38,856 bases of DNA from Solirubrobacterales bacterium. GTDB taxonomy: Bacteria; Actinomycetota; Thermoleophilia; Solirubrobacterales; Solirubrobacteraceae. The translations under genes were made by a program, and so were the position numbers. How positions within the stretch are numbered: the stretch's first letter is position 1; every line of letters starts with the position of its first letter. Below are positions 3,582 through 35,452 of the stretch, one piece after another. Under the pieces are notes generated by a model, which saw only the letters and a list, made by a program, of their open reading frames with translations, was not told the origin of the DNA and did no database searches. The stretch is taken from NCBI GenBank assembly GCA_027449125.1, contig DAIDME010000001.1, positions 1-38,856 on the forward strand, written 5' to 3'.

Positions 3582-4547
3582 TCAGTAGGCGGTGCTGCGG
3601 CTGCGGTGCCGCGGCACCGCCTTGTACTCAGGCGCCTGTCCCCGGTTCCACAGGATCTCGTCTACCGCCGCCGCTGTCAGTGGCGGCCCGCTGGCCGCCA
3701 CTGACGCCCGCACGATCAGCTCCACGGCATGCACAGCGCAGGCCCTGATCTCCACTTCTTCCGGCGAGCCGTGCTCGATCAGCTCGCCACGCTCGATCCG
3801 CGCCACGAGTTCGGGGTCGAACCAGAGCACGCCATCCAGGCGCAGCACGTGGGGCACGAGGTTGTCCGCGAACATCGTCAGACGGTCCAGGTCGGTGAAC
3901 CGAGCCACGCCGGCGCGATGCAGGTCAGCGGCGGCGATCTGCGCGCGCTTGAGGAACGGCACCGGCCGACCGTCGTAGGCCGAGACGTCTTGGAAGCAGC
4001 GCCAGCCTGCCAGGGTCTCAACCAGCGCGACCGCGGAGCCGCCGGAGCCGTCCACAACGGCGGCGAACGAGCCGCCGTAGAGCCGTCGAACGCTCGCTCC
4101 GAGGTCCCGCAGGGACGCTGCCATCAGCGCCATCAGCTCGTGACCTGGATCCTGGTCAAGCCAGCCGGCGATCTCGGCCGCGGTGAGCTCCGCAAGCTGG
4201 GCGGCACTCCAGCGGCCTTCCTGGTCAAAACGTCGCCTGATGCCCGCGGCGATCGTCCGGTAGCCCGTCGGCTGCTCTCGCTTGCGCAGCGTCGGAAACC
4301 AGCCGGAGCCGAAGTTGATCGCATCGAGCGTCAGCCAGAAGGTGGCCTCATCCTCGAGGGCCACCTGCGTCAGTCGTAGTACTGGCGCTACGGTTCCCGG
4401 AACTGCGGCGTCCAGGTCGCGCTCTGCGGGCCGCGTCAAAGTGAGAGCATATGGCTCGATGTGCGTGTCGATCACCCGGACCTGCGTCGACCGATGAGCT
4501 ATCCATGCGCAGGCCTCTCGGAGGCGGTGGGTGACGCTATCGGCCAA
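3582..4547 (-). CDS. Queuosine-nucleotide N-glycosylase, Qng1/DUF2419 salvage family
   Basis: This family releases the base queuine from queuosine 5'-phosphate so that it can be reused in tRNA. Recognisable blocks are NFGSGWFP (residues 78-85 from the chosen start), FQDVSAYDG, FLKRAQIAAADL, and the conserved MFADNLVPHVLRLDGVL followed by GELIEHGSPEEVEIRACAVHAVELI-type sequence. I chose a TTG start at 4547 (321 residues). It has GAAAGG (4557-4562 on this strand) 9 nt upstream, and the conserved region begins soon after. The only longer ATG, at 4661, would overlap the preceding gene by 38 bp and add a low-complexity Arg-rich leader. It lies 76 bp downstream of the MauE-thioredoxin gene and probably shares its transcript. 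A bacterial Qng1 is known from Sphaerobacter. Its 3' end converges with the rho-type gene, 13 bp apart. Confidence 0.85.
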   Translation of the reverse strand: MADSVTHRLREACAWIAHRSTQVRVIDTHIEPYALTLTRPAERDLDAAVPGTVAPVLRLTQVALEDEATFWLTLDAINFGSGWFPTLRKREQPTGYRTIAAGIRRRFDQEGRWSAAQLAELTAAEIAGWLDQDPGHELMALMAASLRDLGASVRRLYGGSFAAVVDGSGGSAVALVETLAGWRCFQDVSAYDGRPVPFLKRAQIAAADLHRAGVARFTDLDRLTMFADNLVPHVLRLDGVLWFDPELVARIERGELIEHGSPEEVEIRACAVHAVELIVRASVAASGPPLTAAAVDEILWNRGQAPEYKAVPRHRSRSTAY

Positions 4548-4623
4548 TGTGTCTGACCTTTCGCTATTGCGCGATGCGAGCGATGGTGGGCGTGGCTCGC
4601 GGCGCGTGGTTGACCGGTCGTCG

Positions 4624-5637
4624 CTACGTAACGGGCAGCTCCGACCTCGGGCGTGCCTCAACGGTTGGCTGAATGCGGTAAACGGTCAAGCGGATCAGGT
4701 CCTCGATCGCGTCCTGGCCGACGACAGGTCCGTTGAGGACCGTGCCGTCAGCGGCAAGCGAGAGCGCTGAGGGGCTGCCCACGATGCCGTAGTCGCGGAA
4801 CACCTGGGTGTCAGCGTCGGAGAGAACCGCAGTCAGCCCGTGCTGCGCGGCGATTTGCCGAGCCACTACCGAATCAGTGCCCATCACGATGGCGATCCGC
4901 AGGCGCTCTTCTAATGCTCGCTGCCAGCGGCCCAGGTGCGGGTACAGGTCGGTGCATGCGCCGCAGCCGGGAGTGGTGAACACGAGTACCAGCGGTGAAC
5001 CCGGCACGAGGAGCGATTCAAGCGTCCGCGGACCCGCGGCACCGGTGCCGGGCAGGCTGAAGCTCGGTGCGGGCGCTCCAATCGCCGGCGGCCTGTGCGC
5101 CGCGCTCGAGGCGGACGTGCCCGCGACTGGCGGCCGACGGGCCCGAGCAATCAGGGCCACGGCGAGAGCCGCGAGCGATACCGCAGTGACCAGCGCGACT
5201 TCGCCGGGGCCGTCCATCGCCCGCCAGCTGTCGCTCGTAGCTGTGGGCGCCACGGCGACCGCCAGGGCGGCGAGCAGTAGAGCGCCGTTGCGCGCCAACG
5301 TCACAGGGCCGATTGGCATTGGCCTCAGTCCACCAAAGCAGCCACAATCGGGCCGTCTGCCGTGGAGGAGGGCGTTAGCGATTCCCGCGGTGAACACTGC
5401 TAGCAGTGCGGCCGCACCGGCTCCCGCCCCCCGCGAAACGGGCCCCAGCAGGAGACCGATCGCGACGACCAGCTCGGCTGGCGCCAGCACCACGGAGCCG
5501 ATCCGCACGAGCCTCTGCGGAACCCCGAACCCTTCCAGGGTGCCTCGTGAACCGTCCGCGTCCCGCAGCTTCGCAAGGCCCGCTATCAGGAACACCGCGG
5601 CTAGCAGCCCTCGCGCCGCGAACGTGGCGGTTCCCAT
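4624..5637 (-). CDS. MauE/DoxX-type membrane protein fused to a TlpA-like thioredoxin domain
   Basis: 337 residues from the ATG at 5637; a TTG at 5643 would add two residues. The N-terminal half has four or five hydrophobic helices of the MauE/DoxX type (LLAAVFLIAGLAKLRD..., with CGCFGG at about 98-103). The C-terminal half, after APSFSLPG, is a redoxin domain with VLVFTTPGCGACTDLYPH; the active-site pair is C225-G-A-C228, and the cis-Pro-like segment is GIVGSPSALSL. In methylamine dehydrogenase operons separate MauE and MauD proteins handle disulfides of the Cys-rich MauA. Here the two functions are fused. The thioredoxin domain should face outside. It diverges from the HprK-like gene, with 43 bp between start codons. 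TACCAT lies 7 nt before the ATG, suggesting a leaderless transcript. Role in oxidising or isomerising the Cys-rich Tat protein at 6621 is an inference. Confidence 0.88.
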   Translation of the reverse strand: MGTATFAARGLLAAVFLIAGLAKLRDADGSRGTLEGFGVPQRLVRIGSVVLAPAELVVAIGLLLGPVSRGAGAGAAALLAVFTAGIANALLHGRRPDCGCFGGLRPMPIGPVTLARNGALLLAALAVAVAPTATSDSWRAMDGPGEVALVTAVSLAALAVALIARARRPPVAGTSASSAAHRPPAIGAPAPSFSLPGTGAAGPRTLESLLVPGSPLVLVFTTPGCGACTDLYPHLGRWQRALEERLRIAIVMGTDSVVARQIAAQHGLTAVLSDADTQVFRDYGIVGSPSALSLAADGTVLNGPVVGQDAIEDLIRLTVYRIQPTVEARPRSELPVT

Positions 5638-5644
5638 TTGCAAG

Positions 5645-5650
5645 ATGGTA
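5645..5650 (-). promoter_or_regulatory. -10-like element placing transcription start at the ATG of the MauE-thioredoxin gene
   Basis: On the minus strand TACCAT (T-A-N-N-N-T) ends 7 nt before the ATG at 5637, the spacing expected when the transcript starts at the start codon. No ribosome-binding site is seen. A perfect TTGACA lies further upstream (5692-5697 complement), but no good -10 sits at the right distance from it. Confidence 0.35.
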
Positions 5651-5680
5651 TCTGCCTGGCGCGGCTAGGATGCTCACGCG

Positions 5681-6460
5681 TTGCCATCACGTGTCAAGGA
5701 CAATCCCGAGACGATCACGATCTCAGCCCATGGCGTCCAGGTGACGGTAGCGGCGGCTGAGTCATCAGTGCTGCGAACGCTGTGCGACGTTCTGCCGCGG
5801 GGTTGGAGTGCGTCGAGCCGCGCCCGCGAGGCTGACACTGGCCACTCCGATCTGACGGTGCTCCGCCTCGACCACCGCTACCGCATCAGAGACGCGAGCG
5901 GCCGGGAGTACGGGTGTCCAGAGCGTGAGCTCGCCGTGTGGATGCTGCGCCGCCAAGTCGGCCGGCACGTCGCAGCGCGACTCGTCGGCCGCACCGTCCT
6001 GAGGGCCGCTGTCGTCCTGCACGAATCCGGTGCGATCCTGCTGCCAGCGTTGGCGCTTGCGGGCACGAGTACGCTCGTGGACGCGCTGGTCGACCTGGGT
6101 GCTCGGTTCCGCTCTGATGACTACGCGGTGATTGACCCCGAGGGCTCGGTGGTCGACTCTGCCGGAACTCTCGGAGAAGCGCCGCACAGCGAACCACTCC
6201 CGATGAGGGTCGCGCTCGTGGCACTGGCCGTCTACTCTAAAGCGGCTACGTGGTCTCCAACAGCCTTGTCGGAAGCTCAGGCGGTGGTGGCGCTAACGCC
6301 ATATGCGGTTTCGCTCGGCGAGCGCCCGGGCGAAGCTATCGTCGCGTTGCACCACGTAGTCTCGGGCGCCACGCTCCTGCAGGGCGAGCGTGGCGACGCC
6401 CAAAGTACGGCAAAGGCGCTCATTGACCTGCTCGATCGCAGGTCGTCGGAAGAAGCCTGA
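5681..6460 (+). CDS. HprK-like P-loop protein with degenerate Walker A (putative pseudokinase)
   Basis: 259 residues, collinear with the HprK-like protein at 7468. Shared blocks are LPRGW near the N-terminus, SDDYAVI versus SDEYAIF, ATWSP versus ATWAP and LLQGERGD versus LLAGERGE. In this copy the P-loop is LPALALAGTSTL (121-132) where the other has LPGSSYAGKSTL, so the ATP-contacting Lys is Thr129 and the leading Gly is Ala. The HAGSVA segment before the P-loop is also replaced. HPr kinase/phosphorylase-type proteins phosphorylate Ser or other groups on partner proteins; this one probably cannot hydrolyse ATP normally and may be a regulatory or scaffold partner. The TTG start at 5681 follows AGGA at 5667-5670. 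The reading frame is intact over its full length, arguing against simple decay. Confidence 0.75.
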   Translation: MPSRVKDNPETITISAHGVQVTVAAAESSVLRTLCDVLPRGWSASSRAREADTGHSDLTVLRLDHRYRIRDASGREYGCPERELAVWMLRRQVGRHVAARLVGRTVLRAAVVLHESGAILLPALALAGTSTLVDALVDLGARFRSDDYAVIDPEGSVVDSAGTLGEAPHSEPLPMRVALVALAVYSKAATWSPTALSEAQAVVALTPYAVSLGERPGEAIVALHHVVSGATLLQGERGDAQSTAKALIDLLDRRSSEEA

Positions 6461-6490
6461 TGGGTCGCCAGCGGCACTCCCGCGAAGACC

Positions 6491-6519
6491 TTGCGTTCCG
6501 GCCTGGGCCCTGGTAGAGT
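6491..6519 (+). promoter_or_regulatory. Predicted sigma-70-type promoter of the PqqD-Tat gene
   Basis: TTGCGT (6491-6496) and TAGAGT (6514-6519) are separated by exactly 17 bp. Transcription would start near 6526, about 95 nt before the PqqD gene. The leader holds a hairpin, GGCTCG (6538-6543)/CGAGCC (6549-6554), and a short open frame (6580-6633). Confidence 0.55.
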
Positions 6520-6579
6520 ACCGGTTGGAAGTGTGTCGGCTCGCAGGCCGAGCCTGCACATGACTACCGAAGGGACTCG

Positions 6580-6633
6580 ATGCGAATGGCGGATCACACA
6601 ACGGAATTGGGGTATTGGAAATGGGTCCGGTGA
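6580..6633 (+). CDS. Possible 17-residue leader peptide overlapping the PqqD-Tat gene
   Basis: ATG at 6580 follows AGGGA (6571-6575). The frame reads MRMADHTTELGYWKWVR and ends in TGA at 6631-6633. That stop overlaps an in-frame GTG of the PqqD gene (6630-6632) in a GTGA arrangement typical of translational coupling. It could be a leader peptide that couples translation, a small Trp/Tyr-containing peptide product, or chance. Only the ribosome-binding site, position and overlap support it; there is no homology evidence. Confidence 0.3.
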   Translation: MRMADHTTELGYWKWVR

Positions 6634-7430
6634 CTTACGGAGAATCGCGGCCAGAGGCCCGCACGGACGAACTCGTAATCGAGGCAGTAGGAGATGAGCT
6701 CGTCATCTTCGACCGCGACACGTCCGTGGCGCACGCGCTTCAGCCGCTCGCCGCCGCAGTGTTCCGTGCGGCTGACGGGAGCCTCACGGTGGCGGAGATC
6801 GCCAGCAGCGCGGCGGGGAAGCTGGGGCGGCCCGTTGACGTTTCCGAGGCGTACGCAGCGGTTCGCGAGCTTCAGGAACTCGGTCTGTTGGCGAGCGGCG
6901 GTCTCCGCGGCGTCTCTCGCCGGCGCCTGTTGCAGGTTGGGGGCGCGGCAGCCGCCACGGCACTGGTGGCCTCCGCTGTCGTCCCGGCTTATGCTGCGGC
7001 ATCCACCACACCGTGCGCAGTGTCCACGCTGTCCCAATTCGCGGTCTTGGTGGAGTCGTGCCAGGAGTACTACTTCCTCGTTTACTCGCTCGCAGGCGTG
7101 AATTCCATTACGGAGACTGACTGTACAAAGCTATCGGGCAGCTGCGACGGTACTCTCGGAGGGAAGTCGAACACGAACTGCTACAACAACCAGGGCAGCG
7201 GCCCAACAAGCTTGTCAGTCGGCGGTAGCACCTACGACATTCAGTCGAGCAACTGTCCCAACGTCACGGTTTGCGCCGGTGGAACCAGCGGCGGAGTGAC
7301 GGTCAACCTTCCGTCTGGCGTGACGCTCATAGCGTGGTACTTGCACAACGGTGACTACTGCTACGGTCCTTTCACGAACGCGCCTAGCGGCAGCAATCCC
7401 TTCATCGATCCTTGTACAGCTCTAAGCTGA
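6621..7430 (+). CDS. PqqD-like domain / Tat signal / Cys-rich exported domain fusion protein
   Basis: About 269 residues from ATG 6621; TTG 6615 and GTG 6630 are alternatives. Residues about 10-93 form a PqqD-like winged-helix domain (GDELVIFDRDTSVAHALQP, VAEIASS, AAVRELQELGLL). These domains bind peptide substrates of RiPP-type enzymes. A twin-arginine signal follows: SRRRLL (about 99-104), then an Ala-rich hydrophobic stretch and a likely cleavage site after VVPAYAAA. The remaining ~140 residues are an exported Ser/Gly/Asn-rich domain with nine Cys and no family I recognise. The PqqD domain would stay in the cytosol while the C-terminal part crosses the membrane folded. It sits between two HprK-like paralogues, near the divergent MauE-thioredoxin gene. 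It resembles MauA in overall logic (Tat export, many Cys, MauE/D nearby), but the exported part has only one Trp, so a tryptophan tryptophylquinone cofactor is not supported. Confidence 0.82.
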   Translation: MGPVTYGESRPEARTDELVIEAVGDELVIFDRDTSVAHALQPLAAAVFRAADGSLTVAEIASSAAGKLGRPVDVSEAYAAVRELQELGLLASGGLRGVSRRRLLQVGGAAAATALVASAVVPAYAAASTTPCAVSTLSQFAVLVESCQEYYFLVYSLAGVNSITETDCTKLSGSCDGTLGGKSNTNCYNNQGSGPTSLSVGGSTYDIQSSNCPNVTVCAGGTSGGVTVNLPSGVTLIAWYLHNGDYCYGPFTNAPSGSNPFIDPCTALS

Positions 7431-7467
7431 CCAGGCGTCCCGCAACTAACTGGAGACTCGGCGGGGC

Positions 7468-8232
7468 TTGAGTTCGCGGTTCGAGGCGACGGCTTACGGC
7501 GCTACGATCGAGGTTGTCGCTTCGGACGCGAGTCTGCTTGAGGCGCTGGTGAGCGCCCTCCCGCGCGGATGGCGCCTAACCGATGAGGCCACGGACCGCT
7601 GGCGCTTTGAAGCGAGGCGTGAACCGGGCGGACTAGTGGTCGTGAACGGCGCTGGCATCGAGGCGGACGTGCGGGACGTTGGGGGCGCTCAGGCGGCCCT
7701 GCGCGAGGAGTTGCGACGGTTCGTCGGTTTGCACTCGCCGGAGTGGATCTTCGTCCACGCCGGGTCGGTGGCCTACGGCGACCGCGTGATCGTGCTACCC
7801 GGGAGTTCCTACGCGGGCAAGAGCACGTTGGTGGAGGCTTTGGTGCGGGCCGGTGCCGAGTTCTACTCGGATGAGTATGCGATCTTCAATCTGAGCGGTC
7901 GTGTAGTTCAGTACAGAGAGCCTCTCATTCTGCGGACGCAAGATGGCCGCACTGAATCTGAGACGGCGGCCGAAGGTCCGGATCGACCGTTACCTGTAGG
8001 CATCGTGGCCTTGACTGGCTACAAACCTGGCGCAACTTGGGCGCCTCGCGAGGTTAGTACAGCTGAGGGCATCGTGGCGTTACTGCAGCATGCCGGTGGC
8101 GTTCGTTCGCGTCCCGATACCGCAGTTCGTGTGTTTAGGAAGGCTCTGACGGGTGTGAGGCTGCTCGCTGGCGAGCGGGGCGAAGCCGACGAGACGGCAC
8201 GGCTGTTGCTTGATGCGCTGAGCGGAACCTGA
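7468..8232 (+). CDS. HprK-like P-loop kinase-related protein with intact Walker A
   Basis: 254 residues. After an N-terminal region with LPRGW come FVHAGSVAYGDRVIVLPG, the P-loop GSSYAGKST (112-120) and SDEYAIF (134-140), which matches the conserved acidic segment after the P-loop of HprK (V-A-D-D). This is the C-terminal kinase core of HPr kinase/phosphorylase without its N-terminal domain. Such HprK-like proteins occur in peptide-modification loci; a relative phosphorylates lasso peptides. Here the most obvious partner is the PqqD-Tat protein 37 bp upstream, a guess from gene order. The TTG at 7468 is the chosen start; GGCGGGG lies just before it, so the exact start is uncertain. It is the catalytically competent-looking paralogue of the protein at 5681. 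Confidence 0.8.
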   Translation: MSSRFEATAYGATIEVVASDASLLEALVSALPRGWRLTDEATDRWRFEARREPGGLVVVNGAGIEADVRDVGGAQAALREELRRFVGLHSPEWIFVHAGSVAYGDRVIVLPGSSYAGKSTLVEALVRAGAEFYSDEYAIFNLSGRVVQYREPLILRTQDGRTESETAAEGPDRPLPVGIVALTGYKPGATWAPREVSTAEGIVALLQHAGGVRSRPDTAVRVFRKALTGVRLLAGERGEADETARLLLDALSGT

Positions 8233-8277
8233 ACTCGTTGGTGGTCTCCGTCACGACCTCGGCTGACGTTACCGTTG

Positions 8278-10521
8278 ATGGAAAGCATGATGCAGACCAC
8301 TGACCAGCTTGAGACCTTGCTCGCGGGCCTGAACGACCCGCAGCGCGAGGCGGTGACCTACGGCGAGGGGCCGCTGCTCATCCTCGCCGGCGCTGGCTCC
8401 GGCAAGACGCGGGTGCTCACGCACCGGATCGCCTACCTGGTCGCCACCGGCGCCGCGCAGGCGGGTGAGATCCTCGCGATCACCTTCACCAACAAGGCGG
8501 CCGCGGAGATGCGCGAGCGCGCCGAGCTGCTGGTCGGCCGCCGCGTGCGGGCGATGTGGGTGATGACCTTCCACGCCGCCTGCGCACGGATCCTGCGGGC
8601 ACACGCCGACAGGCTCGGGTACACGCGCCAGTTCACGATCTATGACCAGGCCGACTCGCGCCGGCTGATCAAGCGCTGCATGGAGGCGGCCAACGTCGAC
8701 CCCAAGCGCTTCACGCCCGCCGCCATCCACAGCCAGATCTCGGACGCGAAGAACCGCATGCGCGACGCGGAGGCCTACGCGCAGATGGTCGGCTCGTACT
8801 TTGAGCAGACGGTCGCCAACGTCTACACCGGCTACGAGCGCGAGCTGCACCGCGCCAACGCGATGGACTTTGACGATCTGCTGGGCCGCACGGTCAACGT
8901 GATCGAGCTCTTCCCGGAGGTGCGAAGCGCCTACCAGGACACCTTCCGCCAGATCCTCGTCGACGAGTACCAGGACACCAACCCCGTCCAGTACCGGCTG
9001 CTCGAGCTGCTCTCAGGCGAACGGCGCAACCTGACGGTGGTCGGCGACCCGGACCAGTCGGTGTACGGCTTCCGCGGCGCCGACATCACCAACATCCTGA
9101 GCTTCGAAGAGCAGTTCCCCGACGCGGCCGTGATCCGCCTGGAGCAGAACTACCGCTCCACCCAGACGATCCTCGACGCGGCCAATGCGGTGATCGCAAA
9201 CAACCGCGGGCGCAAGGAGAAGCAGCTCTGGACCGAGCTGGGGGAGGGCGACCCGATCCATGTGCGCGAGCTGGACGACGAGCATGCCGAGGCGCGCTTC
9301 GTCGTCGGTGAGATCCAGCGGCTGGTCGACGCGGGCGCCTCGCTCAGTGAGGTGGCGGTCTTCTACCGCACCAACGCCCAGTCGCGTGTCCTGGAGGACA
9401 CGCTCGTGCGCGCCGAGGTGGCCTATCAGGTGGTGGGCGGCACGCGCTTCTACGAGCGCGCCGAAGTCAAGGACGCGATCGCCTACCTGACGCTGCTCGT
9501 CAACCCGCAGGACGCGGGGTCCTTCAGCCGCATCGTCAACTCCCCGCGGCGCGGGATCGGCGTGACCTCCGTCGCCAGGATCCTCGGATACGCAAACACG
9601 CTGGGCGCGAGCGTCTGGGAGGTGGCCGCGGAACCGGCCTCGGTGCCCGGTCTGGGCGCGGCGGCGATCAAAGCGGTGGGGCGCTTCATGGAGACGATGG
9701 TCGCGCTGCGCGAGCGCGCAACCTCGGGCGAAGCCTCGGTTGCACCGCTGCTCGGCGCCGTGCTCGACCAGACCGGCTACCTGGAGGCGCTGCGCGCCGA
9801 GCGCACGATCGAAGCTCAGGGCAGGATTGAGAACCTGGAGGAGCTCGTCAACGTGGCCAGCGAGTACGACGCCACGGAGGGCGAAGAGCGCTCGCTGAGC
9901 GCCTTCCTGCAGCAGCTGTCGCTGGTCGCGGATGCCGACACGCGTGAGGACGACAAGGGAGTCGTAACGCTGATGACACTCCACAATGCCAAGGGGCTCG
10001 AGTACCCGATCGTGTTCATGATCGGCTGCGAGGACGGGATCTTCCCGCACTCGCGCGCGATCGAGGAGGGCGCCCTGGAGGAGGAGCGCCGGCTCTGCTA
10101 CGTGGGCATCACCCGCGCCCAGCGCGACCTCTACATGACCTGTGCGCGCCAGCGCACGGTCTTTGGCGCCCACGGATACGCTGTGCCGAGCCGTTTCCTG
10201 GGGGAGATCCCAGACTCGCTGACCGACCGCGGCGAGCAGCAGGCGCGCGGCCGAGCGGGCTTCCGTGAGCGCCTCACGTCGTGGCCGGCCAGCGGGCCGG
10301 CCGCGACGGCGGAGACGGGCGGTCAAAGCCTGCGCGTCGGCCGCGCGCGCGCGAACCCGGAGCCACCGGCGTTCGCCCTCGGCGAGGACGTGAGCGACTC
10401 CAAGTTCGGTGAGGGCACGGTGATCGGCCTCGAGCCCGGCGGCATCGTCGTCGTGCGCTTCCGCCGCGACGGCTCGGAGCGCAAGCTGCTCAGCCAGTAC
10501 GCACACCTGAGCCGGCGCTGA
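8278..10521 (+). CDS. pcrA: ATP-dependent DNA helicase of the UvrD/PcrA type
   Basis: 747 residues from ATG 8278 (ATG at 8287 or 8290 also possible). It is an SF1A 3'-5' helicase for repair and replication-restart. Motif Q-like NDPQREAV is followed by Walker A AGAGSGKT, GAITFTNKAA-type motif Ia (ILAITFTNKAA), motif II VDEYQDTN, motif III GDPDQSVYGFRGAD, motif IV QNYRS, motif V TLMTLHNAKGLEYPIVF and motif VI YVGITRAQ. The C-terminus ends with the PcrA-type Tudor-like segment (SKFGEGTVIGLEPGGIVVVRF). The length is normal for PcrA. It is transcribed alone, downstream of the HprK-like gene with a 45-bp gap. Confidence 0.97.
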   Translation: MESMMQTTDQLETLLAGLNDPQREAVTYGEGPLLILAGAGSGKTRVLTHRIAYLVATGAAQAGEILAITFTNKAAAEMRERAELLVGRRVRAMWVMTFHAACARILRAHADRLGYTRQFTIYDQADSRRLIKRCMEAANVDPKRFTPAAIHSQISDAKNRMRDAEAYAQMVGSYFEQTVANVYTGYERELHRANAMDFDDLLGRTVNVIELFPEVRSAYQDTFRQILVDEYQDTNPVQYRLLELLSGERRNLTVVGDPDQSVYGFRGADITNILSFEEQFPDAAVIRLEQNYRSTQTILDAANAVIANNRGRKEKQLWTELGEGDPIHVRELDDEHAEARFVVGEIQRLVDAGASLSEVAVFYRTNAQSRVLEDTLVRAEVAYQVVGGTRFYERAEVKDAIAYLTLLVNPQDAGSFSRIVNSPRRGIGVTSVARILGYANTLGASVWEVAAEPASVPGLGAAAIKAVGRFMETMVALRERATSGEASVAPLLGAVLDQTGYLEALRAERTIEAQGRIENLEELVNVASEYDATEGEERSLSAFLQQLSLVADADTREDDKGVVTLMTLHNAKGLEYPIVFMIGCEDGIFPHSRAIEEGALEEERRLCYVGITRAQRDLYMTCARQRTVFGAHGYAVPSRFLGEIPDSLTDRGEQQARGRAGFRERLTSWPASGPAATAETGGQSLRVGRARANPEPPAFALGEDVSDSKFGEGTVIGLEPGGIVVVRFRRDGSERKLLSQYAHLSRR

Positions 10522-17230: not shown

Positions 17231-19258
17231 GTGCGTGCACTGGTAACTGGCGGCGCCGGCTTCATCGGCTCGCATATCGTCCGTGGGCTGCTCGCCTCAG
17301 GACATGAGGTACGGGTCATCGACAACCTCTCGACAGGTCGCCTGGCGAACCTTGACGAGGTGATCGAGGAGATCGAGCTCTATGAGCTCGACATTCGTGA
17401 CGCCGACGGGCTGCGTGCGCCGCTGGTCGGCTGCGATGCGGTGATCCACCTGGCGGCGTTGCCGTCGGTTCCGCGCTCGATCGCCGATCCGTCGGCGAGT
17501 CACGAGACGAACGCGACGGGGACCCTGAACGTGCTGCGCGCCGCCCGGGACGCCGAGGTCGGGCGCGTGGTCTCAGCGTCATCCTCGTCGATCTACGGGG
17601 CCGCTCAGGGGCTGCCCAAGCGCGAAGGGATGCGGCCGCTGCCGATCTCTCCCTACGCGGTCTCAAAGCTGGCCGCGGAAAGCTATTGCCAGAGCTTCTA
17701 TGAGGTCTACGGCCTGGAGACGGTGGCGCTGCGCTACTTCAACGTGTTCGGCCCGCGCCAGGACCCCAACTCCGAGTACGCCGCGGTGATCCCCAAGTTC
17801 ATCCGTGCGTTCCGGCTCGGTGAGGCGCCGGTGATCTTCGGCGACGGGCAGCAGTCTCGCGACTTCACCTACGTGGATAACGTCGTGGCTGCGAACCTGG
17901 CGGCGCTGAGCACCGCTGGGATCGGCGGGCGTGTCTACAACATCGCCTGCGGCGCCGGCATCACACTCAATGAGATTGCGGCGCGGCTCCGTGAGGCGCT
18001 CGCTGCGGATGTGGAGCCGACGCACGGTCCCGACCGCGTCGGTGACGTGCGCCACTCGCTGGCTGACATCAGCGCCGCCCGGACCGACCTCGGCTACGAG
18101 CCCGAGGTGGGCCTCGAGGACGGGATAAGGCGGACGGTCGCCCACTATCTCGACCTCGGCCCGATGGTGGGGCCGGCATCGGCGCCCGGACCACGCCTCA
18201 AGCTCGTCGAGCCGCGCGGTGGCTCTGGCCGTAAGCACCGCACCCGGAACTATCTGATCACGGGCGGCGCCGGTTTCATCGGCTCGCACCTGACCGAGGC
18301 GCTGGTCAAGCGCGACGAGTCGGCAACGGTGACGATCCTCGACGATCTCTCGACCGGGTCGTTTGAGAACGTCGCACATCTGGTCGACGGTGACCGTGTG
18401 CGCTTCGTGCGCGGCTCGGCGACGGACGCGGCCCTGGTCGACGACCTGATGCGCGCGGCCGGCCAGTGCATCCACCTTGCCTCCGCGGTGGGCGTGCAGA
18501 TGATCGTCAACGAACCACTCGAGACGCTGATGCGCAGCGTCCGCGGCTCAAACGTGATCATGCATGCCGCAACTCGTAACGGCGTGCGGGTGCTGTTCAG
18601 CTCGACCTCCGAGGTGTACGGCAAGCAGTCCCACCGACTGCTCTCAGAGGATGACGATCTCATCTTCGGCTCGCCGTCGAAGGGGCGCTGGACCTACGCG
18701 ATCGCCAAGAGCTTCGGTGAGGCGCTGATCCACGGCTACGGTCGCCAGCGTGGAGTCGATGCCACGATCGTGCGCCTGTTCAACTGTGTCGGGCCGCGCC
18801 AGACCGGCACCTACGGCATGGTGCTGCCGCGCTTCGTGCGCCAGGCGCTGGCCAATGAGAATCTCACCGTCTACGGCGACGGCAAGCAGACCCGCTGCTT
18901 CACGCATGTCAACGACACGGTCGCGGCGCTGCTCGCGCTGAGCGACTGCGACGGCGCCTGCAGCCGTACGTTCAACGTCGGGACACCGAACCTGATCTCA
19001 ATCCACGAGCTGGCCCGGCGGGTGATCATCCGCTCGGGCAGTGACAGCGGGATCACGCTGGTCCCATACGAGGAGGCCTACCCGACGGGCTTTGAGGAGC
19101 TCGGCACGCGTGTCCCCGACACCACGGCGCTGCGCGAGCTGACGGGCTGGGAGGCTCGGTTCTCCATCGACGACGCGATCGACGACGTGATCGCACACGA
19201 GCGGGCTCGCCTCGCCCTGGCCGCATCGCTCGAGTCAGCGGCCGGCACGGGAGCGTGA
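17231..19258 (+). CDS. Double-domain NAD-dependent nucleotide-sugar epimerase/dehydratase
   Basis: A 675-residue protein made of two complete extended-SDR domains. Domain 1 (1-310) has TGGAGFIG (6-13), the acidic residue D31 for NAD, SASSSSIYG and Y142-x-x-x-K146, and resembles GalE/WbpP-type UDP-sugar 4-epimerases. A linker (about 311-338, Pro/Arg-rich) leads to domain 2 (339-675), with TGGAGFIG (344-351), FSSTSEVYG and Y489-x-x-x-K493. Domain 2 resembles UDP-glucuronate decarboxylase-like SDRs. Both active sites look intact, so two consecutive sugar conversions may be done by one chain. GTG 17231 follows AGGGGG at about 10 nt. The gene heads the glycan locus and is 6 bp before the WecA-like gene. 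Confidence 0.88.
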   Translation: MRALVTGGAGFIGSHIVRGLLASGHEVRVIDNLSTGRLANLDEVIEEIELYELDIRDADGLRAPLVGCDAVIHLAALPSVPRSIADPSASHETNATGTLNVLRAARDAEVGRVVSASSSSIYGAAQGLPKREGMRPLPISPYAVSKLAAESYCQSFYEVYGLETVALRYFNVFGPRQDPNSEYAAVIPKFIRAFRLGEAPVIFGDGQQSRDFTYVDNVVAANLAALSTAGIGGRVYNIACGAGITLNEIAARLREALAADVEPTHGPDRVGDVRHSLADISAARTDLGYEPEVGLEDGIRRTVAHYLDLGPMVGPASAPGPRLKLVEPRGGSGRKHRTRNYLITGGAGFIGSHLTEALVKRDESATVTILDDLSTGSFENVAHLVDGDRVRFVRGSATDAALVDDLMRAAGQCIHLASAVGVQMIVNEPLETLMRSVRGSNVIMHAATRNGVRVLFSSTSEVYGKQSHRLLSEDDDLIFGSPSKGRWTYAIAKSFGEALIHGYGRQRGVDATIVRLFNCVGPRQTGTYGMVLPRFVRQALANENLTVYGDGKQTRCFTHVNDTVAALLALSDCDGACSRTFNVGTPNLISIHELARRVIIRSGSDSGITLVPYEEAYPTGFEELGTRVPDTTALRELTGWEARFSIDDAIDDVIAHERARLALAASLESAAGTGA

Positions 19259-19264
19259 GCTGAG

Positions 19265-20329
19265 ATGCACGCCGTCGTTGCGGGGACGGTGGCGGCGGTT
19301 GTCACCTACCTGCTCACACCGCTCGTGATCAGGCTGGCGATGAGGACGGCGTTCTTCGACCGGCCGGCCGGCTACAAGGGCCACGACAACCCCACTCCTT
19401 ACCTGGGCGGCACCGCGATCTTCGCGGGCGTCTGGGCGGGCCTGGCCATCGGCGGCCTGCACACGCACTGGGCACCGATCGTGCTCTGCGCGGTCCCTAT
19501 CTGGGTGATGGGCACGATCGACGACCGCGTCGGCCTGCCGATCCTGCTGCGAGTCTGCGTGGAGATCCTGGTCGGCGTCGCGCTCGTCGTCGCCGGCTTG
19601 GGGTGGCAGGTGGTCCACTTCGCTCCGGTCAACGACGTGCTCACAGTCTTCTGGGTCGTCGGTGTGATGAACGCCTTCAACCTGATGGACAACATGGATG
19701 GGGCAGCCGCCACGACCGCGGCCGCCTCCGCCGTCGGTGCCGCCGGCATCGCGCTGCTCTCAAACCAGCGTGGCCCCGCGACCATCTGCCTGGCGACGGC
19801 CGGCGCCTGCGCCGGCTTTCTGCCGCGCAACCTCGCAAAGCCTTCACGCATCTTCATGGGGGACGGCGGCAGCCTGACGCTCGGGCTCCTGGTGGCAGGC
19901 CTCACGATGTCCTCAGTAACCCGCGCCTACTTCGGCCCGAGCGGCGTGGTGATCGGCGCGCTCCTCGTGGGCCTCGTGATCTTCGACACCACGCTCGTGA
20001 CCATCTCGCGCACGCGGGCCGGCCGGTCGGTCCTTTCCGGTGGACGCGACCACACCACCCACAGGCTCGGCCGGCTGGTTGGGTCGCCGCGCCGAGTTGC
20101 GCTCACGCTCGCGACCACTCAACTCGGCTTGTGCGCAGCGATAATCGGCGTCTCTCAAGCGGGCAGGGGGTGGGTTCTTCTCTCCGGAGCAGTCGGCCTT
20201 TGCTTCGGGCTAATGTTGCTGTGGCAGTTCGAACACGCGAGCTGGTTCCGGGTGGAGCGGCTGCCGCTGGACAGCGCATCCCCGTCAGAGGCGTCAGTTA
20301 GCCCCGTCGCTCGGATTTTCTCGACCTGA
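19265..20329 (+). CDS. WecA/TagO-type undecaprenyl-phosphate sugar-1-phosphate transferase
   Basis: 354 residues, a polytopic MraY-superfamily enzyme that links a HexNAc-1-phosphate (probably GlcNAc-1-P) to undecaprenyl phosphate, the first membrane step of glycan synthesis. Diagnostic blocks: DRPAGYKGHDNPTPYLGG near the N-terminus, the Mg site NLMDNMDGAAA, and IFMGDGGSLTLG. About ten hydrophobic segments fit the family. The ATG at 19265 follows GTGAGCTGAG. It probably shares a transcript with the double epimerase upstream. The sugar specificity cannot be fixed from sequence. Confidence 0.92.
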   Translation: MHAVVAGTVAAVVTYLLTPLVIRLAMRTAFFDRPAGYKGHDNPTPYLGGTAIFAGVWAGLAIGGLHTHWAPIVLCAVPIWVMGTIDDRVGLPILLRVCVEILVGVALVVAGLGWQVVHFAPVNDVLTVFWVVGVMNAFNLMDNMDGAAATTAAASAVGAAGIALLSNQRGPATICLATAGACAGFLPRNLAKPSRIFMGDGGSLTLGLLVAGLTMSSVTRAYFGPSGVVIGALLVGLVIFDTTLVTISRTRAGRSVLSGGRDHTTHRLGRLVGSPRRVALTLATTQLGLCAAIIGVSQAGRGWVLLSGAVGLCFGLMLLWQFEHASWFRVERLPLDSASPSEASVSPVARIFST

Positions 20330-20440
20330 GATGGATGCCAGACCGCCGAGGGTTGCAGCTGACTCGATCAGGGACAGGTGAACATACTCTTGTCGTTTGC
20401 CATCAGGCCGGGGTGATACCCCTGTGAGCGACACGACTGC

Positions 20441-20470
20441 CACTCGCATGCCTTGGAAGGCCTACGAGTG
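20441..20470 (+). terminator. Long interrupted hairpin downstream of the WecA-like gene
   Basis: CACTCG (20441-20446) pairs with CGAGTG (20465-20470), and inside it GCCTT (20450-20454) pairs with AAGGC (20457-20461) around a 2-nt loop. The 3-nt internal loops are symmetrical. It may terminate the epimerase-WecA transcript or be an end of the decayed insertion sequence next to it. No T-run follows. Confidence 0.35.
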
Positions 20471-20559
20471 TGCCATGAGTCTCTCGTCTTCGGACAATCT
20501 CGGCATCGATGTGGTCAAATTGAACGGAATCTGGAGGGCCTGCGCGTGTGTGGCTGGTG

Positions 20560-21020
20560 AAGGGTGACTAGGTCCGCAGGTGAGCGGGATCAGTGCGAGC
20601 GCCGCTACGGTGCTGTGGAACCCGTATGCGCGCCGTGTGATCGGCCGGACCTGATCGTTCAGCGTTTGGGCTCGGAGGCGGCTGATCCCGCGACGGATCG
20701 CGGCGGGGATCCCCTCTCGGCGCTTGCAGGTCGCTTTGCCGAGCAGGGTCAACGGTCGAAGCTGCAACGAGAGAGACGTGTGCGCAGGCGGTCTATGGGT
20801 TGGTCGATGGTTTCGACGCTGACCCCTTTGGCGAGGATCGCGCTAACCGTACCTGTCATCGTGCAGCCGTGCGCGGCTTACCGCCGAGCGCTTCGATCTG
20901 CGCGCGCGCCGGCTTCGCGGTCGATGAGCTCGTCGAGGCTTCGCAGCAGCACCCAGCGAGCTGCTTTGAACTCGCGGGCGGTGCCCTTGTTGCCGGTGGG
21001 ACGCGGGTCGTTCCAGTGCT
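20560..21020 (-). pseudogene. Decayed ISL3-family transposase remnant
   Basis: In this 718-bp gap (20330-21047) the minus strand carries pieces of an ISL3 DDE transposase in different frames. Around 20997-20941 it reads WNDPRPTGNKGTAREFKAARWVLL, shown here as blocks W-N-D, K-G-T-A-R-E-F-K and A-A-R-W-V-L-L, matching the family's W-N-x-x-R ... K-G-A-R-W-A-L-L. Around 20647-20573 it reads RPITRRAYGFHS then TVAALALIPLTCG, matching the C-terminal I-R-L-I-x-R-x-A-[FY]-G-F-x-S block. A stop codon (TAG) and at least one frameshift interrupt it, and the N-terminal zinc-finger part is missing. Assignment is by eye; boundaries are approximate. The rest of the gap shows no gene I can support apart from the hairpin at 20441-20470. 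Confidence 0.7.
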
Positions 21021-21047
21021 ATTGCAGCCACTCTGCGATTCCTCACC

Positions 21048-21986
21048 GTGACTGAACGCCTCCCGACAGTCTCGGTGGTGATCACCACTTACAACTGTGC
21101 TGACTACGTCGCCGAGGCTGTGAGTTCCGCGATCGCACAGGACTACGACCGCATGGAGATCGTTATCGTCGACGATCACTCGACCGACGAGACGTTTGAT
21201 GTACTGCAGTCAATGAAGGACAGCCGCCTCCGCGTCCATCGAAACCAGGCACGCCTTGGACAGATTCGCAACCGCAACAGAGCTGTGGGCTTGGCGCGCG
21301 GCGAGCTGCTCAAGTTCCTCGATGGCGACGACGCGCTCGAAGCGCGAGCTGTCGCGCGGCTGGCGGAACCGCTGCGCGATGACCCGCGCGTGGGCCTGGC
21401 TGCCTGTCGCCGGACCGTCGTCAACCCCCGCGGCCGCGTGGATACCAGCGAGTGGGCGGCTCGTTTTGGCAGTTTGTGGCCGGCGTGCATTGCTACGGGA
21501 GAAGCGGTCGATGCCGTGCCAATGCTCCGCGCCTGGCTCGATGGCGGCGCGACCGGCAATTGGATAGGCGAGCCGACGGCAGCCATGGTGCGACGCGATT
21601 TGACCACCTGCGCGGGAGGGTTTCCAAACGTGAGGGTCGCCACTGACATGGCTCTCTGGGCAAAGATCATCGCCCGCGGCCAGCTCTTCTTAGTCGACGA
21701 GCCACTGGTGCGCTACCGCCACGGGCATGAGTCGGAAACGTCGGCAAGGTGGACTGAGAGCGGTCGCTGGCTGGCTGGGTTGGAAATTTGGGAGTCGCTG
21801 GCCGCCGACCAAGCGGTCCGGCGGTGCTGTCCAGAGGTTACGAGCTACGTGGCTCGAGCGCGCCGCGACGCGCTGCGCACTGCGGTAACGTCGCTCGGTG
21901 AGGAGCATGGCCACGTTGCGGTGTCGCAATACCTGTGTTACCTATTCGCGCGAAGCCGTCGGCGGTATCGTGCGAGCATCAACTGA
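21048..21986 (+). CDS. Family 2 glycosyltransferase
   Basis: 312 residues with a GT-A fold: VVITTYNCADYVAEAVSSA at the N-terminus, IVIVDDHSTDET, and the metal-binding D-x-D in KFLDGDDALE. It transfers a sugar from a nucleotide donor, presumably to the lipid-linked glycan. There is no membrane segment. The GTG at 21048 is the chosen start; no clear ribosome-binding site. It begins only about 30 bp after the ISL3 remnant, so its original promoter may have been lost or replaced. The next GT2 gene follows at once and looks like a diverged relative (both have an F-L-x-x-D-D motif and an E-P-T-A-x-M-V segment). Confidence 0.9.
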   Translation: MTERLPTVSVVITTYNCADYVAEAVSSAIAQDYDRMEIVIVDDHSTDETFDVLQSMKDSRLRVHRNQARLGQIRNRNRAVGLARGELLKFLDGDDALEARAVARLAEPLRDDPRVGLAACRRTVVNPRGRVDTSEWAARFGSLWPACIATGEAVDAVPMLRAWLDGGATGNWIGEPTAAMVRRDLTTCAGGFPNVRVATDMALWAKIIARGQLFLVDEPLVRYRHGHESETSARWTESGRWLAGLEIWESLAADQAVRRCCPEVTSYVARARRDALRTAVTSLGEEHGHVAVSQYLCYLFARSRRRYRASIN

Positions 21987-21987
21987 T

Positions 21988-22989
21988 GTGTCCAGGCCGA
22001 AGTCGCATCAATCGCTTGTGAGTAGGGGCGAGGGTCGCGCCGTCCCACGTCCCGTTGTGTCGATTTGCATTCCGACTTACAACGGCGGCGCGCTGGTCGC
22101 GGATGCCGTCGAGTCAGCGCTATCGCAGACCTACCCTGCTATCGAGGTGATTGTCGTGGACGACGCGTCGACTGATGGCTCAGCGCAGCGGGTAAGGATG
22201 CGCTTCGGCTCTCGGATTGTGGTATTGCGCAACAGGCGCAATCGTGGCCAAGCGGTGAGCACGAATCTGGCCGTTGCGCGGGCGCGGGGCGAGTTCGTCA
22301 AGTTCTTGCACCACGACGACCGCCTGAACGCAGACTGTGTGGCTCGCATGGTCGACGCGAGTTCACAGTCGTCTTCAGTCGTCTTCGTGTTCAGCCGTCG
22401 CAAGGTCGAGGTGGCGCAAGCCGCTCACAGGGGGCCAGACTGGCTGGCGGAGTTCTCAAACCCTCATCTCAGGATTCCTGGGCTGAGTGACGTCAACCGC
22501 GGATCTGACCTAGTTGATGTGCTAGTGCACTCTGGGCTGCGCGCGAACCATCTCGGCGAGCCAACGGCGGTGATGGTCAGCCGGGGGGCCTTCATTGCAG
22601 CTGGCGGAATGAGTTCAAGGCCCAAACAGTTCGCTGACCTGGACGTCTGGCTGCGCGTTCTGCTGCGCGGCGACGCTGTCTTCGTCGACGACGAGCTAAG
22701 TGCTTATCGAGTCGCGGCGGACTCGACAACTGGACGCAACGGCCGGGAGAGGCGGGGCTGGATGGACCGACTGTGGATAGCGGAGAATCTGCTGCGCGAC
22801 CCGCGTGCGCACCTCTGGCGCGAAGAGCTTCTGGCTATCAGAGACGAAGAGCGGGCGATTGCCTGGAAGACGGCACTCCGCGGCGCTTTGCGCCTTCAAG
22901 AGAATGCTGGGCACCCCGCGGAGTGGCTCGAGTACGCGATGTGGCGGTTAGAGTCACTCCTTCGGCGAACCGATGCCGGGATGAGGTGA
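21988..22989 (+). CDS. Family 2 glycosyltransferase
   Basis: 333 residues from GTG 21988, one base after the stop of the previous gene; GTG 22018 is an alternative. GT-A motifs: VSICIPTYNGGALVADAV, VIVVDDASTDGS and KFLHHDDRLN (the D-x-D is H-D-D here). The segment HLGEPTAVMVSRGAF parallels NWIGEPTAAMVRRDL in the upstream gene, suggesting that the two arose by duplication. The acceptor and sugar are unknown. Its stop overlaps the next start (TGATG). Confidence 0.88.
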   Translation: MSRPKSHQSLVSRGEGRAVPRPVVSICIPTYNGGALVADAVESALSQTYPAIEVIVVDDASTDGSAQRVRMRFGSRIVVLRNRRNRGQAVSTNLAVARARGEFVKFLHHDDRLNADCVARMVDASSQSSSVVFVFSRRKVEVAQAAHRGPDWLAEFSNPHLRIPGLSDVNRGSDLVDVLVHSGLRANHLGEPTAVMVSRGAFIAAGGMSSRPKQFADLDVWLRVLLRGDAVFVDDELSAYRVAADSTTGRNGRERRGWMDRLWIAENLLRDPRAHLWREELLAIRDEERAIAWKTALRGALRLQENAGHPAEWLEYAMWRLESLLRRTDAGMR

Positions 22990-24074
22990 TGCCAAGAGAT
23001 GGAGATGACGCCTCTCAACCGAATCCACATGGTGGCATGGGCCTGGATGGCGGGGAAGTGGCCCTTGCGCTTCATGTCCAGGCGCCGGAGGCGATAACAG
23101 TGGATGCGATTCGGGGCCCCGTGGCATCTGTCATCATCGTCAGCTGGAACACATCCAGTGCCACTCAATTGTGCGTCCAGTCCGTACTCGCACACGACCC
23201 AGATGGTGCGCTAGAGGTCATCGTGATCGACAATGCATCTGCCGACGACACTGTGGCCCAGCTAACCAGCCGCTACCCGAGCGTCAAGGTGATTGTCAAC
23301 CCTGAGAACGAGGGCTTTGCGCGCGCGTGCAACCAAGGAATGGCCGTCGCAGCCGCTCCGTTCCTAGTTCTCCTAAACAGCGATGCAACGGTCTCTGACG
23401 CTGTCATCTTCAGATGCATCGATTGGCTAAGTGCTCACAGGGATGCGGGGATCGTTGGCTGCGAACTGGTAAATCAGAGTGGCCGACGGACGTACACAGC
23501 TTTCCGCAAGCTTGCGATTTGGCGAAGCCTATTTGAGAACCTGTGGCTATATCGCTGTCTCCCTCGATCCCGCTGGCCACGGATCCTCCTTGGTGGGTAC
23601 TGGGACAGCAGCGAACCCGTATCCGTCGACTGGTTGGCTGGTGCCTTCATGTGTCTGCGCCGGGAGGTCTTCAACGCCAGTGGAGGGTTCGACTCACGCT
23701 TCTTCATGTATGGCGAGGACTGCGAATGGGGAATGCGACTGCGGAGAATGGGGATTGAAGTCTGGTACGTCCCGAGTTTGGGACGGATTTGGCACGCTGG
23801 GTCCGGTAGCTCAAATGACCTTTGGAGCACGCGCGAGCGCTTGCAGCTTGGGCATGACGGCGGCAGCCAAGCTTACAGGATGATGTATGGTCGTACGCGC
23901 GCGAATTGGTACCGGCTTGCTCAACTAGTTGGCTACACGATCAGGTGGGCGGTATACACTGCTGCGAGCCGTTTGCAAACAAGTGAGTACTATACAGCGC
24001 GGGCGCAACACTACCGTCTTCTACGTTCTCTGTACGCACCGCGTATGGTGCCGCTGTCGCGACAGCGACGGTGA
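22989..24074 (+). CDS. Family 2 glycosyltransferase, rhamnosyltransferase-like
   Basis: 361 residues from ATG 22989, which overlaps the previous stop. After an unusual N-terminal extension of about 40 residues come SVIIVSWNTSSATQL, VIDNASADDTVAQL, NEGFARACNQGM, LLNSDATVSD and DWLAGAFMCLRREVF. GEDCEWGMRLRRMG, typical of WbbL-type rhamnosyltransferases, follows. It is closely related in layout to the GT2 domain fused to AsnB at 29219. Local base composition is much lower in G+C than in the housekeeping genes, fitting acquired DNA. It ends 94 bp from the converging ABC gene. Confidence 0.9.
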   Translation: MPRDGDDASQPNPHGGMGLDGGEVALALHVQAPEAITVDAIRGPVASVIIVSWNTSSATQLCVQSVLAHDPDGALEVIVIDNASADDTVAQLTSRYPSVKVIVNPENEGFARACNQGMAVAAAPFLVLLNSDATVSDAVIFRCIDWLSAHRDAGIVGCELVNQSGRRTYTAFRKLAIWRSLFENLWLYRCLPRSRWPRILLGGYWDSSEPVSVDWLAGAFMCLRREVFNASGGFDSRFFMYGEDCEWGMRLRRMGIEVWYVPSLGRIWHAGSGSSNDLWSTRERLQLGHDGGSQAYRMMYGRTRANWYRLAQLVGYTIRWAVYTAASRLQTSEYYTARAQHYRLLRSLYAPRMVPLSRQRR

Positions 24075-24168
24075 CTCGTCACTCTGAGGAGCACTGAAGT
24101 ACGTCGGGCCCGCTGACGATGGCTGAGTCGATCTGCGCGATAGGTCTGCAGTCACGTTGGGCGGCACG

Positions 24169-25986: not shown

Positions 25987-25994
25987 CTATGGGC

Positions 25995-26061
25995 ATCCTA
26001 TTCGGCTTGCGCTGGCTGCAATGGTAAGCACCTACCCGTCGCCCAGTGTTGGTGGCGCCAC
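25995..26061 (-). promoter_or_regulatory. Promoter region of the ABC flippase gene
   Basis: The minus strand has TAGGAT (complement of 25995-26000) 8 nt before the ATG at 25986, with TTGCAG 15 bp upstream of it. A perfect 10-bp palindrome GTGGCGCCAC at 26052-26061 could be an operator. The rest of the 163-bp gap to the next gene shows nothing else. Confidence 0.35.
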
Positions 26062-26149
26062 ACTTATGCGTCGGGTGTGCAGAGGCCGTGCTCAAGACAT
26101 CTCACGGATCTCGCCGCGAGGCGGTCGTGACGTCCAGCTATGGGCGAGA

Positions 26150-32056: not shown

Positions 32057-32066
32057 CTACGCACGC

Positions 32067-32072
32067 AGCATA
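32067..32072 (-). promoter_or_regulatory. -10-like element of the AsnB-GT2 operon
   Basis: On the minus strand TATGCT ends 10 nt before the ATG at 32056, giving a transcript with almost no leader. No ribosome-binding site is visible. Together with TATCGT at 32173-32178 it makes a divergent promoter region of 129 bp. Confidence 0.35.
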
Positions 32073-32172
32073 CGGGCCCGGCACGCGGGAGCTTCGCCCG
32101 CACGATCCAAGCAACGCGCCGTGCACGGCCATGCTGGCTCAATTGAAGCGATGTGATCGGCCGCGACATAGG

Positions 32173-32178: not shown

Positions 32179-32185
32179 CGCGTAG

Positions 32186-35431: not shown

Positions 35432-35452
35432 GCGCCACGTCGCACAGCACAC

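Follow-up and report, generated by a model that had tools for sequence, protein, structure and literature searches.

HprK-like kinases that modify peptides have been described in lasso peptide and LPP pathways. According to the available sections of PMC9266682, the HprK-like kinases PadeK and ThcoK phosphorylate a Ser of the lasso precursor, with the residues His-Lys-Asp-Asp being essential. PsmK also phosphorylates Ser, and the nucleotidyltransferase PsmN is needed to add a hexose and yield phospho-hexose Ser, although the involvement of a host glycosyltransferase was not excluded (PMC9266682 and PMC8498205, both in part). In LPP, LppK polyphosphorylates Ser3 of the core beside an RRE domain and an NTP transferase, and glycosyltransferases are abundant in these loci (available sections of PMC13381572). 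Here we analyzed a stretch of 38,856 nucleotides (the window) from a Solirubrobacterales soil bacterium (assembly GCA_027449125.1, contig DAIDME010000001.1), which contained at 4624-8232 a set of four genes encoding a MauE-thioredoxin fusion, two HprK-like proteins (HprK1 and HprK2), and a precursor composed of a PqqD-type RRE domain, a twin-arginine (Tat) signal, and a Cys-rich cargo. Together with a nucleotidyltransferase that accompanies the set, this combination of kinase, RRE, and nucleotidyltransferase resembles the published phospho(glyco)peptide pathways of the paeninodin/pseudomycoidin and LPP types. With a probability of about 0.55, the product of the set is an exported surface or matrix protein that is modified, carries disulfide bonds, and is connected with the synthesis of exopolysaccharide.

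All four open reading frames (ORFs) were present at the coordinates proposed by the initial annotation, with the MauE-thioredoxin gene on the minus strand and the other three genes on the plus strand as it had described. The MauE-thioredoxin gene occupied 4624..5643 (-) with a probable ATG start at 5637, followed by HprK1 at 5681..6460 (+), the precursor at 6621..7430 (+), and HprK2 at 7468..8232 (+). The precursor ORF as called began with TTG at 6615, and an in-frame ATG was located at 6621. The set was flanked on the left by qng1, encoding the queuosine salvage protein (3582..4661, -; PF10343, E 8.8e-52), and on the right by a gene for a UvrD/PcrA-type helicase (8275..10521, +; PF00580, E 6e-91).

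Comparison of 28 genomes of the window's genus indicated that the four genes form a real unit. Strong matches to the PqqD-Tat leader (E<=1e-20), HprK (E<=1e-40), and MauE-thioredoxin (E<=1e-40) were found in the same 10 genomes, and weak matches to the leader occurred in four more (7e-6 to 6e-4), to HprK in three others, and to MauE-thioredoxin in four others (best 1.8e-36, in G367). The 10 carriers did not represent 10 independent events because the species share ancestry. In six carriers (G000, which is the window's genome, G372, G310, G406, G194, and G139), the set was located between qng1 and uvrD. These two genes were directly adjacent in eight of the nine non-carriers inspected (out of 18), and in the ninth, G358, no uvrD was present within the fetched qng1 stretch. 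They were also adjacent in all three readable carriers with the set elsewhere (G163, G252, and G399), and in the fourth such carrier, G407, the contig ended. Since the set was inserted at this site in six carriers and the site was empty in the non-carriers and in the carriers with the set elsewhere, its genomic positions mark it as movable. The co-occurrence in the same genomes and the empty qng1-uvrD site ruled out that the genes were chance neighbours. The neighbourhood comparison, which the initial annotation had named as a test that could refute the proposed system, did not refute it, with the families adjacent wherever the contigs allowed. In G252, the order was PqqD-Tat, MauE-thioredoxin, and HprK on one strand, and this order was also seen in G163 and G407, where it was divided between two contig ends, while in G399 the HprK gene was divergent. 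The anchor of this synteny, Qng1, adjoined rho and was present in 27 of the 28 genomes.

The leader of the precursor consisted of the PqqD part (approximately 6651-6890), the twin arginine (6918-6923), and the remainder of the signal up to approximately 6998. In the AlphaFold2 model (the models of this study used 14 and 13 sequences, taken from the window and from named records), the PqqD part at residues 11-90 was predicted confidently with the winged-helix fold of an RRE. Its best matches in the PDB were RREs of lasso peptides, with TbiB1 at the top (5v1u, probability 1.00, E 3.1e-3) and no PDB match at E<=0.001. PF05402 was matched by six of seven members of the precursor family at E<=0.1 (best 3.2e-5). 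The window precursor itself scored 18.6 bits against this model (Pfam cut-off 23.4) and 21.7 bits against TIGR04353, PqqD_rel_X (cut-off 35). Thus, the PqqD domain of the initial annotation held as an RRE fold in the model but did not reach the Pfam cut-off. The Tat-Cys-rich fusion was upheld: the twin arginine R100-R101 was invariant in 13 of 13 aligned relatives, the sequence read as a hydrophobic stretch with an AxA-type end, and the mature region of 143 residues (approximately 6999-7427) contained nine Cys, with Pfam TAT_signal scoring 11 against a cut-off of 22.7. No second precursor paralogue was found in the window's genome at E<=1.

The leader was conserved to a greater extent than the cargo. 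Among the precursors of the 10 congeners, leader identity exceeded mature identity in all 45 pairs, with medians of 0.45 and 0.27. The AlphaFold2 prediction for the mature domain of the window protein was moderately confident, and no PDB entry matched it credibly. A search in Acidobacteriota yielded 32 leaders, 28 of them with a cargo of 27-60 residues and 26 with 6-8 Cys. The cargo statistics covered 56 cargos of at least 20 residues, three shorter ones being dropped. The number of Cys was even in 44 of 47 non-redundant Cys-bearing cargos, and a knottin-like spacing (C-C-CC-C-C, the term referring to Cys spacing only) was found in 8 of the 56. In other cases, the leader was followed by Gly-rich domains (L147, L237, and L244), Thr/Gly repeats (L230), or a YfbK-like von Willebrand domain (L235). 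Because the leader is conserved while the cargos vary across leaders, the leader is portable. Further arrangements of such leaders were also observed. A second set in G310 (L147, 7484-10572) contained HprK, a nucleotidyltransferase, and a PqqD-Tat protein whose cargo was glycine-rich and not Cys-rich; five PqqD-Tat leader proteins occurred in one genome at E<=1e-5 (G769; L087, L163, L164, and L166-L168); and two genomes of the same genus had tandem pairs of overlapping small PqqD-like ORFs (L099, 4406-5175; L100, 7287-8050).

The two HprK-like proteins differed in their catalytic residues. Both had matches to TIGR04352 below its curated cut-off of 200 in NCBIfam (HprK1, 32.0 bits, E 6.5e-8; HprK2, 39.7 bits, E 2.9e-10), and the NCBIfam model hpr-ser was absent among the matches listed for HprK2. 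The AlphaFold2 model of HprK2 had a mean pLDDT of 91.2, and Foldseek ranked PEPCK first and HprK/P (1kkl_B) third, both with a probability of 1.00. The HprK/P fold combined with the catalytic His, P-loop Lys, and Asp was found in HprK2 only, which kept His97, Lys118, and Asp135-Glu136. In HprK1, the P-loop Lys (region 6044-6076) was replaced by Thr and the catalytic His by Arg. The dead and the intact P-loop described in the initial annotation were therefore both seen, and the loss of His from HprK1 came in addition. The residue table had 53 rows, three of them repeated, which left 50 distinct sequences after exclusion of two partial hits; His, Lys, and Asp were kept in 43 of the 50. The seven degenerate sequences were HprK1 of the window, the first copies of three congeners, in which the catalytic His and Lys were lost too, and L237, L238, and L245 from another phylum. 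An intact HprK was present in the same locus for six of them (the window, the three congeners, L237, and L238), and at L245 a fragment of a second HprK was seen at the contig edge. On the tree of these 50 rows, the degenerate state required three changes, forced by well-supported branches; deep branches of the tree were weak, and the degenerate rows were long-branched. HprK would thus have been inactivated at least three times, provided that lost residues are never regained.

A degenerate and an intact HprK could also form a chaperone instead of a kinase. The PqqD domain would then serve in quality control of Tat export, with the HprK-like proteins binding it to hold or release the precursor in an ATP-dependent manner, and the cargo would receive no covalent addition. 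The position of the PqqD part directly before the Tat signal, with which it would be cut off, fits this explanation, as does the great diversity of the cargos (Gly-rich and von Willebrand-type among them), which makes a common modified site not obvious. The retention of His-Lys-Asp in most of the distinct HprK-like sequences argues against it, and so does the nucleotidyltransferase, which travels along with an intact DxD, while the relatives in the published trios modify peptides. We consider the quality-control explanation unlikely.

The nucleotidyltransferase had been left out of the gene set of the initial annotation, whose four members otherwise stood as a unit. A gene of the NTP_transf_5 family (PF14907) was located beside the set in 8 of the 10 carriers (L016, L017, L019, L088, L020, L021, L089, and L090), as well as beside the second set of G310 (L147). 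Against a PF14907 cut-off of 31.2, the scores were 84.9 (L016), 90.5 (L090), and 103.7 (L147) bits; four proteins checked ranged from 84.9 to 215.5 bits, and another reached 93.8. The nucleotidyltransferase of the window's genome (G000:C6:25858-26790) was identified by profile search rather than by a Pfam score. In this search, all 10 carriers matched at E<=1e-100, and the only other matches were in G236 (3.7e-69) and G405 (4.5e-13). The motif KG...D.D was found in all 28 nucleotidyltransferases.

In G000 and G194, the nucleotidyltransferase was found on another contig inside an exopolysaccharide-type cluster, and G139 had a second copy in such a place too. The window contained the beginning of this cluster (17231..38856, unstranded), which ran on into contig C6. 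The right end of the window encoded residues 178-530 and the end of C6 residues 1-221 of one Wzz/CpsD-like protein, as judged from its match in G139, and the two contigs shared an exact end overlap of 141 bases. Owing to the split protein and the overlap, the nucleotidyltransferase can be assigned to the cluster that starts within the window, at a distance of approximately 33 kb from HprK2. The sets of G163, G252, G399, and G407 were located in a cluster read as exopolysaccharide-type; Pfam gave CbiA for L021 and Wzz just below cut-off for L143, two loci of these four carriers. Among neighbouring genes, Pfam detected Wzz and Poly_export (L238), a glycosyltransferase (L248), Wzy_C (L149), and Wzz just below cut-off (L255), at loci that were picked by eye for this check. 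Two ORFs of the window's cluster were fusions. A 945-residue ORF at 29219-32056 (-) joined an asparagine synthase/glutamine amidotransferase to a family-2 glycosyltransferase and adjoined another ORF, an apparent asparagine-synthase homologue, and a 675-residue ORF at 17231-19258 (+) contained two NAD-dependent epimerase/dehydratase domains in tandem.

Outside the genus, the association of leader, kinase, and nucleotidyltransferase recurred in other phyla. Scanning of named genomes yielded 12 loci. Eight were of the same type as in the window, among them that of Conexibacter sp. S30A1 (NZ_CP097127), whose set has one HprK, and four were of other kinds (L083 of Armatimonadetes, L084 of Abditibacteriales, L085 of Acidobacteria, and L087). 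A leader profile, A8, was built from those loci, and a full leader was required to start by model position 20 and to end at or beyond 125. In the phylum of L085, at least 25 of 297 genomes had full leaders (47 with any match at E<=1e-6), compared with at least 8 of 149 in the phylum of L087 (30 with any match) and at least 7 of 399 in the window's class (14 with any match), where all those with full leaders belonged to the window's genus; these counts are lower bounds because only some candidates per genome were scored. The context sample was chosen rather than random and comprised 40 places, mostly the best ones, together with L083-L085 and L087, giving 49 distinct full leaders after one duplicate was dropped, with several loci ending at contig edges. 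Within 5 kb of these 49 leaders, HprK was found in 35 cases, the nucleotidyltransferase in 29, and both in 24. The commonest layout was HprK, PqqD-Tat-peptide, and nucleotidyltransferase on one strand, which was seen in 13 of the 49 rows, or 14 with L085, where it was hidden by an over-long ORF. L237 and L238 repeated the four-part set of MauE-thioredoxin, PqqD-Tat-Cys-rich protein, intact HprK, and degenerate HprK.

This setting also bears on the possibility that the substrate of HprK and the nucleotidyltransferase is a sugar- or lipid-linked intermediate from the exopolysaccharide pathway. The PqqD-Tat protein would then belong to the matrix, and its leader would serve to sense or control the pathway. 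It would account for the four congeners with the set inside an exopolysaccharide-type cluster, for such genes near three loci of other phyla, and for the placement of the window genome's nucleotidyltransferase within such a cluster. It accords poorly with the fusion of the RRE-fold leader to the precursor and with the closeness of HprK to most leaders outside the genus, and the known pairs of HprK-like protein and RRE act on peptides. Action on a sugar or lipid intermediate is thus quite improbable.

The MauE-thioredoxin protein combined a MauE domain (PF07291, 92.5 bits against a cut-off of 27, E 3.3e-26) with a C-terminal AhpC/TSA-thioredoxin domain (35.9 bits against 26, E 8.1e-9), so that both halves of the fusion named in the initial annotation scored above the Pfam cut-offs. 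The CGCFG motif of MauE and the CGAC motif of the thioredoxin were intact in the window protein, and the C-x-CFG pair and CxxC were kept in the relatives that covered both domains. A MauE domain with a thioredoxin-like partner is reminiscent of the MauE/MauD redox pair of methylamine utilisation, but here the two are fused in one protein, and the MauD model was not reached (23.1 bits against 188.6 required). Methylamine dehydrogenase would be expected to show a conserved pair of Trp and to come with a gene for the heavy chain. The MauE domain and the Cys-rich, Tat-exported partner would suit a quinone-cofactor enzyme subunit akin to the methylamine dehydrogenase light chain and matured with MauE/MauD-like help. 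Neither the precursor nor its six relatives matched that light chain in Pfam at E<=0.1, however, and the cargo was poorly conserved even within the genus; together with the MauD score, this leaves a quinone-cofactor subunit barely credible, and a methylamine dehydrogenase-like cargo is disfavoured by the missing family match. The link to methylamine dehydrogenase suggested earlier is valid only for the redox partner; the cargo does not share it.

The sequences show the gene set, the architecture of the leader, the catalytic residues kept or lost, the co-occurrence, and the exopolysaccharide-type setting. How the partners are recruited, what is added and where, in which order the steps run, and what the product finally does can be inferred as follows. 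The N-terminal PqqD domain of the precursor would act as an RRE in cis, recruiting the HprK-like kinase and then the NTP_transf_5 nucleotidyltransferase. HprK2 would be the active kinase, with which the inactive HprK1 would associate, perhaps as part of a mixed oligomer. In the cytosol, the kinase would place a phosphate, and the nucleotidyltransferase then a nucleotidyl or phospho-sugar group, on Ser/Thr of the cargo. The cargo would be exported by the Tat system, the PqqD-Tat leader would be removed by signal peptidase, and the membrane-bound MauE-thioredoxin would form or shuffle the disulfides of the cargo outside the cell. The order of cytosolic modification under PqqD guidance, Tat export, and oxidative folding is the best reading, and it gains from the nucleotidyltransferase partner and from the published peptide pathways with RRE, HprK, and nucleotidyltransferase. 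By analogy, the match of the trio with those pathways suggests that HprK2 phosphorylates the cargo and the nucleotidyltransferase elaborates it before Tat export. A more far-reaching proposal has a fairly low probability: in a widespread, undescribed route, substrates of the Tat system may be marked by a cis-RRE to be phosphorylated and phospho-glycosylated ahead of export, so that disulfide-rich miniproteins (some knottin-like) or larger matrix domains would leave the cell pre-tagged for attachment to exopolysaccharide, with inactive HprK paralogues having repeatedly evolved as kinase subunits.

Several observations weigh against modification and export of this kind. In the window protein, neither the PqqD part nor the Tat part reached its curated cut-off, and the count of nine Cys in the cargo is odd. 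The nucleotidyltransferase is outside the cassette in G000 and G194. Within 5 kb, HprK was not found for 14 and the nucleotidyltransferase for 20 of the 49 leaders, and MauE-thioredoxin was near only five of them, one of which matched in the thioredoxin part alone while two rows belonged to a single locus. Outside the genus, the exopolysaccharide setting is drawn from Pfam matches at three loci picked by eye. In addition, deletion of the LPP NTP transferase had no detectable effect in the test host, according to the available sections of PMC13381572. No acceptor residue in the cargo is claimed as established. Ser/Thr directly preceded the first Cys in 31 of 51 cargos, the second in 12 of 50, and the third in 9 of 49. 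Compared with shuffled sequences, Ser/Thr was enriched within the first six mature residues (51 of 52; shuffle mean 37.5) and immediately ahead of the first Cys (28 of 45; shuffle mean 10.8). At mature positions 1-4, there was no difference between the cargos (30 of 47) and a crude control of Tat-like ORFs (10 of 17), a small control with several doubtful ORFs, in a comparison where 12 of 59 leaders were uncut by the cutting rule or left fewer than 15 residues. A mature N-terminal Ser/Thr as acceptor is therefore not claimed, strong as it was against shuffles. A C-terminal Ser acceptor, as in the lasso kinases, was rejected as a general one because only 6 of 56 cargos ended in Ser, although the window protein does.

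Two further loci were observed. An AAA_14-type ATPase gene was located at 620-2086 (+), just upstream of rho, with DUF4143 below cut-off, and its position was kept in G139, Conexibacter sp. S30A1. At L156 of G399 (6034-10356), a weak PqqD match together with HprK-like and NTP_transf_5-like ORFs surrounded an ABC transporter judged by eye, and this locus is perhaps closer to a lasso or LPP cluster.

If the proposed modification and export are correct, leader-guided peptide modification and Tat export, hitherto separate fields, would be joined, and bacteria would have a route to genetically encoded, disulfide-locked peptides bearing phospho-sugars. The uncharacterised HprK-related kinases, NTP_transf_5 proteins, and MauE-thioredoxin fusions would gain a testable role, and one portable leader would serve many cargos. 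The repeated decay of HprK beside an intact copy also offers a simple system for asking what inactive HprK subunits do.

The initial annotation named no known operon with this combination, but precedents exist in the HPr-rel-A models and in the paeninodin-like and LPP clusters. No description of a PqqD-Tat fusion was found among the listed titles and abstract openings of open-licence papers, or in the available sections of PMC7470986, PMC12710340, PMC9266682, PMC13381572, and PMC8498205; no such paper was found on TIGR04352, TIGR04353, PF14907, or HPr-rel-A, and the pairing of RRE with twin-arginine brought up a single unrelated paper. The NCBIfam "HPr-rel-A system" (TIGR04352 HprK_rel_A and TIGR04353 PqqD_rel_X) contains the families that matched the HprK and PqqD parts best, but the scores were far below the cut-offs (39.7 against 200 and 21.7 against 35), and PqqD_rel_X is a model of 74 positions without Tat or cargo. 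The paeninodin/pseudomycoidin-type lasso systems (PMC9266682 and PMC8498205, in part) share an HprK-like kinase with His-Lys-Asp-Asp and a nucleotidyltransferase for the hexose on phospho-Ser, and the lasso RRE (B1) is the closest solved fold to the PqqD part. They differ in that the precursor here has a Tat signal and a cargo of 143 residues in the window (27-60 in most leaders of the Acidobacteriota search). With respect to a lasso cyclase, the asparagine-synthase homologue at 29219-32056 is fused to a glycosyltransferase. In the LPP of Bacillota, as given in the available sections of PMC13381572, an RRE, an HprK-like kinase, and an NTP transferase likewise surround the precursor in glycosyltransferase-rich loci, and the leader is removed by a signal-peptidase-like enzyme, but the RRE is a separate protein and the exporter is MsbA-like. 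The main text of that paper does not contain "twin-arginine", "PqqD", or "disulfide". The present system has the HprK-like kinase and the NTP transferase of LPP, the latter at the distance given above in the window's genome; neither an SpI peptidase nor an MsbA-like exporter was among the four genes, and no dedicated search for them was made. The set was not assigned to LPP because its RRE is fused to the precursor rather than being a discrete protein. What differs here from the published pathways is an RRE fused to a Tat-exported Cys-rich cargo, a MauE-thioredoxin partner, and a recurrent degenerate HprK.

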